Source: Bacilli bacterium
GTDB lineage: Bacteria; Bacillota_I; Bacilli_A; RF39; UBA660
Assembly (NCBI GenBank): GCA_017511375.1
Contig: JAFWKJ010000018.1
Span: 139,115-172,195 of the forward strand
DNA length: 33,081 nt
Reading direction: 5' to 3'
The position numbers and the translations under genes were made by a program. The notes beneath the pieces were generated by a model, which saw only the letters and a program-made list of their open reading frames with translations, was not told the origin of the DNA and ran no database searches. Positions within the stretch are counted from its first letter, which is position 1. Each line of letters opens with the position of its first letter. Positions 25,123 through 26,201 of the stretch are shown piece after piece.

Positions 25123-25209
25123 GCTCCCATGGCGGAATTGGTAGACGCGGCAGACTCAAAATCTGTTTCTAGCGATAGAGTTCCGGTTCAAGTCCGGATG
25201 GGAGCACCA
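25123..25209 (+). tRNA. tRNA-Leu (anticodon CAA)
   Basis: Acceptor stem GCTCCCA (25123-25129) pairs with TGGGAGC (25199-25205), then discriminator A and encoded CCA. The D loop has AATTGGTAGAC. The anticodon stem GCAGA/TCTGT encloses CTCAAAA, giving anticodon CAA, which reads UUG. A long variable arm (CTA-GCGA-TAG) is the class II form expected for Leu. The T arm is TCCGG-TTCAAGT-CCGGA. It is a single tRNA with its own promoter and terminator. Confidence 0.97.
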
Positions 25210-25216
25210 TTGTTTG

Positions 25217-25249
25217 AAATGGTAAACATCTTGTTTCCCATTTGTTTTT
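25217..25249 (+). terminator. Intrinsic terminator of tRNA-Leu
   Basis: AAATGG/CCATTT (25217-25222, 25238-25243) plus inner AAAC/GTTT around ATCTT, with a t/c mismatch between, then GTTTTT. Confidence 0.75.
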
Positions 25250-25250
25250 A

Positions 25251-25259
25251 TGTTACGAT
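25251..25259 (+). promoter_or_regulatory. Extended -10 promoter of the structured RNA
   Basis: TGTTACGAT fits TGnTAnnAT and mirrors the tRNA promoter 150 bases upstream (TATGTTATAATG versus TATGTTACGATG). Confidence 0.5.
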
Positions 25260-25265
25260 GAATAT

Positions 25266-25378
25266 GAATGAAGGAGACTTCATATCATAATAAAGGGAAC
25301 ATTCGGTTTTAAGCTGAATGTCTACCTTAATAATATGGTGGACATTTAATTTCTTATGAAATTAAGTGCCATTTTTTT
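25266..25378 (+). ncRNA. Candidate structured small RNA or attenuator, about 110 nt
   Basis: No convincing ORF is present. Four hairpins can be drawn. A: ATATGAA/TTCATAT (25262-25268, 25279-25285), with GGAG in its loop. B: ACATTCGG/CTGAATGT (25299-25306, 25314-25321). C: GTCTACC/GGTGGAC (25320-25326, 25337-25343). D: TGG-a-CATTTAATTTC with its complement (25339-25353, 25358-25371), followed by seven T's, a typical terminator. C and D share 25339-25343, so they exclude each other, and B competes with the foot of C. That is the logic of a terminator/antiterminator switch. The ZIP transporter gene starts 91 bases later but has its own promoter, so this may be a free small RNA or a leader. I do not recognise a known riboswitch class. 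Confidence 0.55.
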
Positions 25379-25431
25379 ATTACTAAAACCAGTATGGTTA
25401 TGAGTAGTCAAATGAGAAAAATATTGTTTTG

Positions 25432-25440
25432 TGTTATAAT
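25432..25440 (+). promoter_or_regulatory. Extended -10 promoter of the ZIP transporter gene
   Basis: TGTTATAAT, exact TGnTATAAT, 29 bases before the ATG; AAGGAGATG follows. Confidence 0.65.
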
Positions 25441-25469: not shown

Positions 25470-26201
25470 ATGGGGTTACTTATTACCTTTATATTAGGAT
25501 TATTCTTTTTAGTAGGAGTCTTATTTGTACATTTTCAAAAGAATACAAAAGTAATTGAGTTTTATTCAATTTCGATTGCACTTGGTACAATGACAGCCCT
25601 TGTTTTATTTGATCTAGTACCAGAAATGTTGGAACACATGGAAGGCGTTTCGTTTATTTGGATTCTTTTTCTTATCCTACTTGGTATTGGAATACTAAAA
25701 GGACTAGATCACTTTGTTCCTGATCATGATGATCATGATGCACCTCATAAGTGTAGTGAAGGAAATTTAATTCATATTGGAATTGTATCTTTAGTAGCTA
25801 TTGTGCTTCATAATATTATTGAAGGAATGGCTGTTTATAGTTTAACCATTGAATCTATTAAGACAGGATTTTTGGTTGCGTTAGGGGTAGGACTTCATAA
25901 TATTCCTATGGGAATGGTGATTGCTACTACGATGGAACATGAACCTAAAAAGACTAAGATGATTGCGTATTGTTTTGCGGTTCTTTCTACTTTTATTGGA
26001 GGACTTCTTATGTTCTTCATTCACTCTATTGTGAGTGAGTTTGTGATTGGACTTTTGATATGTATTACTTTGGGAATGATTTTATATATTATTTTATTTG
26101 AACTTATTCCTCATATTCTTCATGCGAAAGAGCCTAAGAAATTTTTAATAGGATTTGTGATAGGAATGTCTGTTGTTTTTATCAGTATGTTATTTGAGTA
26201 A
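25470..26201 (+). CDS. ZIP-family divalent metal transporter
   Basis: A 243-residue membrane protein with seven to eight hydrophobic helices. A His/Asp-rich loop (about residues 85-97, DHDDHDAPHK) resembles the metal-sensing loop of ZIP proteins. The metal-binding helices read LHNIIEGMAVY (helix 4, near 113-123) and GLHNIPMGMVIATTM (helix 5, near 140-155). Helix 5 usually has HNIPEG; here Met replaces the metal-binding Glu, so one of the two transport-site metals may be lost. ZIPs move Zn2+, Mn2+ or Fe2+ inward. It is a single-gene unit with its own promoter; a structured RNA lies upstream. Confidence 0.88.
   Translation: MGLLITFILGLFFLVGVLFVHFQKNTKVIEFYSISIALGTMTALVLFDLVPEMLEHMEGVSFIWILFLILLGIGILKGLDHFVPDHDDHDAPHKCSEGNLIHIGIVSLVAIVLHNIIEGMAVYSLTIESIKTGFLVALGVGLHNIPMGMVIATTMEHEPKKTKMIAYCFAVLSTFIGGLLMFFIHSIVSEFVIGLLICITLGMILYIILFELIPHILHAKEPKKFLIGFVIGMSVVFISMLFE

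Follow-up and report, generated by a model that had tools for sequence, protein, structure and literature searches.

What is the structured RNA that lies between a tRNA-Leu gene and the gene of a ZIP-family metal transporter in an uncultured gut Bacilli bacterium, and does it serve the transporter? The window, that is, the whole stretch of 33,081 nucleotides that we analysed, had received an initial annotation in which an extended -10, three hairpins and a terminator with a T-run were ascribed either to a small RNA of about 110 nt or to a metal- or metabolite-responsive leader of the ZIP gene. Our analysis favours, with a probability of roughly 0.8, a type I toxin-antitoxin (TA) family as the source of the RNA, which would be an orphan antitoxin at this place (Table 1), its toxin having been lost. 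The computations show the homology of the copies, the peptide gene, the geometry of the pair, the complementarity of the mRNA ends, the pseudogene and the empty sites in relatives; the transcription of the RNA, the toxicity of the peptide and the regulation by RNA-RNA pairing are what we infer from sequences and predicted folds.

Table 1. Features of the RNA locus and its neighbours (positions in the window)
Feature	Position	Strand	Basis
tRNA-Leu(CAA), upstream neighbour	25123..25209	+	ARAGORN, Rfam
Predicted promoter of the antitoxin RNA	25231..25259	+	sequence; aligned copies
Probable antitoxin RNA, orphan, about 113 nt	25266..25378	+	CM R1 match, blastn homologues, fold z
Hairpin A, ATGAAG-GAGA-CTTCAT	25268..25283	+	two-sided changes among copies
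Central hairpin B, GGGAACATTCGG...CTGAATGTCTACC	25295..25326	+	near-invariant across copies; toxin mRNA folds
Terminator D	25341..25378 (stem 25341-25370; T-run 25372-25378, seven T)	+	covariation in 6 pairs
Toxin pseudogene remnant, 16 codons	25369..25416	-	translation; toxin HMM; 5' repeat search
Predicted own promoter of ZIP, extended -10 (TATAAT with TG), downstream of the RNA terminator	25412..25440	+	sequence
ZIP-family metal transporter gene, downstream neighbour, outside the module	25470..26201	+	Pfam PF02535, E 4.7e-17

A multicopy RNA with a convergent peptide gene

A check of the sequence located the extended -10, the three hairpins and the terminator with its T-run where the initial annotation had placed them. 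The extended -10 of the predicted promoter is TGTTACGAT (TG-T-TACGAT at 25251-25259, hexamer at 25254-25259), separated by a 17-nt spacer from a weak -35-like TTGTTT (25231-25236), and the RNA would be expected to start near 25266. In the aligned copies of the family, TATGTTATTATG or TATGTTATAATG is found at the equivalent position, often with TTGACA 17 nt upstream, and the TACGAT of the window is weaker than the TATTAT or TATAAT of the other copies. The minimum free energy (MFE) of region 25251-25378 was -39.8 kcal/mol, compared with a mean of -19.8 after shuffling (z = -5.65; none of 200 shuffles was as good), and CM R1, the training set of which includes the window sequence, matched 25256-25378 with 103 bits (E 1.9e-15). 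The Rfam search of the window gave no match to a known RNA family or riboswitch here, and the region searched at a relaxed threshold gave nothing above the gathering score; the same search of nine homologous loci returned only tRNAs.

The mutual exclusivity of B, C and D that had been claimed is real by sequence, and covariation had been proposed as the check on these three stems. Among 23 diverse antitoxin homologues, chosen partly by hairpin B, the stem of terminator D has six pairs with two-sided changes (24 cells), which none of 500 shuffles reached. Of the cells in this set, 87.5% form the alternative pairing C (AATGTCTA/TAGACATT), compared with 18-50% for slid versions, but C showed no covariation. 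Hairpin B hardly varies, an invariance that is biased and says little because the alignment was partly selected by this hairpin.

Using blastn, we found a second copy in the same genome (contig C10, 75% identity) with an intact peptide gene; 21 of 59 relatives, all belonging to the genus of the window, also had homologues. A third, divergent copy in the same genome (contig C11) was found with CM R1, which matched 37 of 395 genomes of the class, often with several copies per genome; more copies per genome may exist, as up to eight candidates were scored in each. Of the matched genomes, 36 are among the 54 sampled from the bacterial family of the window and one is among the 341 others, suggesting that, within the genomes sampled, the RNA is restricted to a single family of uncultured gut Bacilli. 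When GTDB genomes were scanned with a sequence pattern, at least 115 stretches were found; the matches listed belonged mainly to uncultured Bacilli, 'Tenericutes' and Candidatus Ventrenecus, and a number had come from the ruminant gut. A phage or plasmid origin was rejected after viral contigs gave no match by exact pattern, and phages and plasmids none by blastn.

Several observations concern the distribution of the copies. The only match outside the bacterial family (L178, G228:C32:11738-11859) has an intact peptide gene and is close to the end of its contig, for which horizontal transfer and a misbinned contig are alternatives. Around the modules, tRNA genes are about seven times as frequent as expected (0.478 vs 0.065 tRNAs per kb; 33 of 107 copies), the baseline being the rest of the same loci (genome_contigs loci L039-L153). 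Two modules lie in tandem within about 400-1000 nt in L074, L030, L060 and L182. In L040, L043, L055, L128 and L081, the antitoxin terminator is interrupted by unrelated sequence, and the RNA would extend into other DNA.

The informative partner of the RNA, which had been overlooked in the earlier reading, is a convergent peptide gene on the other strand, present in the window only as a stump. Most copies are followed by this tiny ORF, which has an AGGAGG-type site (for example, MKKREYNIKLLRYISLILLLLTLLVLVIKK). Among 134 distinct copies, the peptide gene is intact in 94, a trace in 18 and absent in 16, and six copies are at contig ends; the 94 are a lower bound because a few of the 18 traces seem to be intact genes with an unusual start. 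The peptide, 27-33 amino acids long, has a basic N-terminus and a hydrophobic core of about 20 residues, and it often ends in KK. Its gene has a strong Shine-Dalgarno (SD) site and a stop codon adjoining the antitoxin terminator; among the first 84 copies parsed, the spacing between this stop codon and the end of the antitoxin was constant in 83. The pN/pS ratio of 0.45 (2762 pairs; 0.41 in close pairs) indicates purifying selection on the peptide. Known toxin families were rejected for it: in Pfam, NCBIfam, PHROGs and PADLOC, no match exceeded the cut-off, and Fst_toxin (PF13955) had no match in the 59 relatives. Short hydrophobic peptides are not necessarily toxic.

The same layout is kept in divergent subfamilies with other peptides. 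In one of these (L177 at G000:C11:9295-9416, L182 and L189), TTGCC or GCTACC replaces GTCTACC, and the peptides are such as MNKKDFLFFSLVILIFLLVLLLFIVLI.

The elements of a type I TA module were found on both strands, namely, a gene under selection for a small hydrophobic peptide with a ribosome-binding site, and an antisense noncoding RNA with its own predicted promoter and terminator. By position, the antitoxin RNA and the (putative) toxin mRNA overlap in antisense by about 80-90 nt.

Pairing predicted for the putative toxin mRNA

In the intact copies, a second promoter faces the antitoxin and would transcribe the mRNA of the peptide, the inferred toxin. Hairpin B read in antisense, together with the preceding A-run, forms an intrinsic-terminator-like element of this mRNA (...CTGAATGTTCCCTTTTTTATT), and the mRNA so defined is predicted to be about 235 nt long. 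The 28 nt with which it begins (GGAACATTTAGTTGTTGAGTGTCTACC or GGGAATATCAGTTGTTGAGTGTCTACC) form the complement of its own 3' end. At least 15 expected 5'-3' pairs were found in 82 of 83 reconstructed toxin mRNAs (median 26), compared with a median of 1 and a maximum of 18 when the 5' end was shuffled; the lone exception (L079) has lost the 5' repeat. In 14 divergent modules, cognate 5' and 3' ends paired with a mean of -36.1 kcal/mol and non-cognate ends with -26.1 kcal/mol (the cognate mean was reached in 0 of 20,000 permutations, a figure inflated by the shared ancestry of module subfamilies). The GTCTACC motif changes together on the two sides, to GTCGTCC/GTCGCC, GCTACC or TTGCC, and in L183 the ends are wholly different and the pairing still amounts to -40.5 kcal/mol. 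Pairing kept through such sequence change is what would be predicted for a functional helix.

The accessibility of the ribosome-binding site was examined with the 3' UTR masked, to imitate its occupation by the antitoxin. In 50 modules with ACCUC, masking raised the pairing of the SD with the upstream anti-SD from 3.6 to 5.7 of 6, clearly so in 41; in 30 modules without ACCUC, total SD pairing went from 4.99 to 4.89 of 6. Because masking changes little in the latter, the clamping of the SD is not a universal step.

These predictions suggest the following mechanism. The 5' end of the toxin mRNA would pair with its own 3' end, that is, the antisense copy of the antitoxin hairpin B, which would stabilise the message and keep its ribosome site mostly closed. 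Binding of the antitoxin to the 3' UTR of the toxin would form a long duplex, a likely substrate of RNase III, and would free the 5' arm of the mRNA so that the anti-SD (ACCUCC) could clamp the whole SD. The toxin could then be translated once the labile antitoxin was lost or the 3' end was trimmed.

Note that hairpin A, in the window and in the homologues, is not part of the segment that is antisense to the toxin mRNA. It is nevertheless conserved, with changes on both sides of the stem: TGAAG/CTTCA is exchanged for GCAAG/CTTGC between subgroups of copies.

The putative toxin remnant and the probable orphan state

In the window, homology to the intact modules runs past the T-run of the antitoxin to about 25416. 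The 3' codons of the remnant read L-I-stop-L-L-I-T-I-L-V-L-V-I-K-K-W (LI*LLITILVLVIKKW), and the toxin HMM matches them at positions 14-30 with 9.6 bits. The TTA of the relatives is replaced by a nonsense TGA at 25408-25410, and the usual stop, at 25369-25371, has become a readable codon. The remnant lacks the 5' half, the start codon and the SD site, and the window does not contain the 5' repeat of the toxin mRNA. With the nonsense codon, the lost stop and the lost 5' half, the window copy has no working toxin, and the antitoxin part keeps its hairpins, its terminator and the weaker promoter. Since the toxin is reduced to a 16-codon pseudogene stump, we regard the RNA as an orphan antitoxin. 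Three relatives (G026, G014 and G012) have ZIP after the same tRNA-Leu and no such RNA between them, and because these junctions are empty sites, the simplest explanation is an insertion that later lost its toxin: a module would have entered between tRNA-Leu and ZIP, and the loss of the toxin would have left the antitoxin behind. A broken T-run of the toxin terminator (AATAAA in the window) was rejected as a mark of toxin loss, as toxin-less copies generally keep the A-run.

The preservation of the promoter, the hairpins and the terminator beside a destroyed toxin may mean that the orphan is retained as a trans-acting antitoxin against the C10 module or incoming modules (anti-addiction), although it may reflect only a recent loss of the toxin. 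The predicted duplex of the window RNA with the C10 toxin mRNA reaches -73.6 kcal/mol, compared with a mean of -33.8 and a best value of -48.8 kcal/mol for shuffled window RNA, and toxin-less copies occur elsewhere too, 16 of the 134 being without any trace of the toxin. However, the value for the cognate C10 antitoxin is -148.8, and the gain in trans may therefore be small; on the C11 toxin mRNA the window RNA has no advantage (-40.2, inside the shuffled range). Trans protection by the window RNA may occur, and we consider retention for this purpose rather doubtful. Equally tentative is the broader proposal of a new type I TA family in which one DNA hairpin would be the antitoxin core, the toxin-mRNA terminator and the 3' arm of a 5'-3' lock like that of hok/AapA, and in which antitoxins would outlive their toxins as stand-alone trans protectors against related modules.

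Relation to known type I systems and to the ZIP gene

Gram-positive type I pairs are described as convergent and overlapping at their 3' ends (PMC4147584, PMC7472228). BsrG/SR4 and TxpA/RatA of Bacillus subtilis (PMC4147584) share with the new family convergent genes with RNA overlap only at the 3' ends, a small hydrophobic peptide and an antitoxin RNA with its own promoter; SR4 bound at the bsrG 3' end lengthens the stem over the SD site, which resembles the clamp predicted in the ACCUC modules. The new peptide, in contrast, has about half the length of TxpA (59 aa) and matches no family model, the copies are dispersed over the chromosome and often close to tRNA genes, and the predicted 5'-3' helix through the antisense strand of the antitoxin hairpin is not described for BsrG or TxpA in the available text of PMC4147584.

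Fst/par of Enterococcus faecalis pAD1 (RNA I/RNA II) has in common with the new family the convergent promoters, the overlapping terminators, a toxin mRNA of about 230 nt, a peptide of about 33 aa and an anti-SD stem in the toxin 5' UTR (PMC7472228). However, the new peptide has neither the PXXXG motif, which is absent from peptide A1, nor the acidic tail of Fst, and the antitoxin has about 113 nt and three hairpins compared with about 40 nt in Fst/par. Unlike the direct repeats DRa/DRb of Fst/par, the repeats of the new family (GGGAACATTCAG..GTCTACC and GGAACATTTAG..GTCTACC) are inverted on the DNA and have the same sense in both RNAs.

In hok and AapA, the toxin message is locked by a 5'-3' interaction, and Hok/Sok (plasmid R1) and AapA/IsoA (Helicobacter) resemble the new family in this pairing (predicted here) with a locked full-length message and in local SD-sequestering hairpins (PMC6733600). 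The end pairing predicted in all but one of the 83 mRNAs, with its coordinated changes and cognate preference, corresponds to a lock of this kind. The new family differs in phylum and peptide, and in that the 3' arm of its lock doubles as the toxin terminator, antisense to the antitoxin gene.

The basic N-terminus, hydrophobic stretch and KK end of the peptide, together with its lack of family matches, would also suit a small membrane regulator or signalling peptide with the RNA as its antisense regulator. We consider this improbable, since the convergent pair with 3' overlap, the hydrophobic peptide, the locked mRNA, the multiple copies and the frequent toxin-less remnants make up the anatomy of type I TA modules (PMC7472228, PMC4147584).

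These multicopy modules would place an apparently undescribed type I TA family in an uncultured gut lineage. A search of the openly licensed literature on type I toxin-antitoxin systems and RF39 found no such family, and the novelty is provisional because the search covered openly licensed papers and the lineage term RF39. The computations suggest an economical design, in which the opposite strand of the antitoxin hairpin terminates and locks the toxin message, and which would unite the Gram-positive 3'-overlap layout with the 5'-3' lock of hok/AapA. The toxin-less copies offer a testable case of toxin loss with retention of the antitoxin.

Finally, a cis-acting ZIP leader (riboswitch or attenuator), in which the exclusivity of C and D would switch between termination and read-through into ZIP, agrees with the location of the RNA, which is on the strand of ZIP and ends about 90 nt before it, and with the frequent formation of pairing C, but is highly improbable and was rejected from the synteny and the Rfam searches: C does not covary, the RNA is missing before the ZIP orthologues at the three empty sites, ZIP follows a regulator-like gene in other relatives, dozens of copies adjoin unrelated genes, no other examined copy lies upstream of ZIP, and ZIP has its own predicted promoter. 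An attenuator with a leader peptide, an idea arising from the alternation of B, C and D, was also rejected, as the sole conserved ORF is on the opposite strand and C lacks covariation. The window RNA appears to be unrelated to the neighbouring metal transporter, and the leader reading is not supported, which removes a false riboswitch candidate upstream of the ZIP gene. The other half of the original proposal, a stand-alone small RNA of about 110 nt, is supported by the conserved promoter and terminator and by the many copies located away from any ZIP gene.
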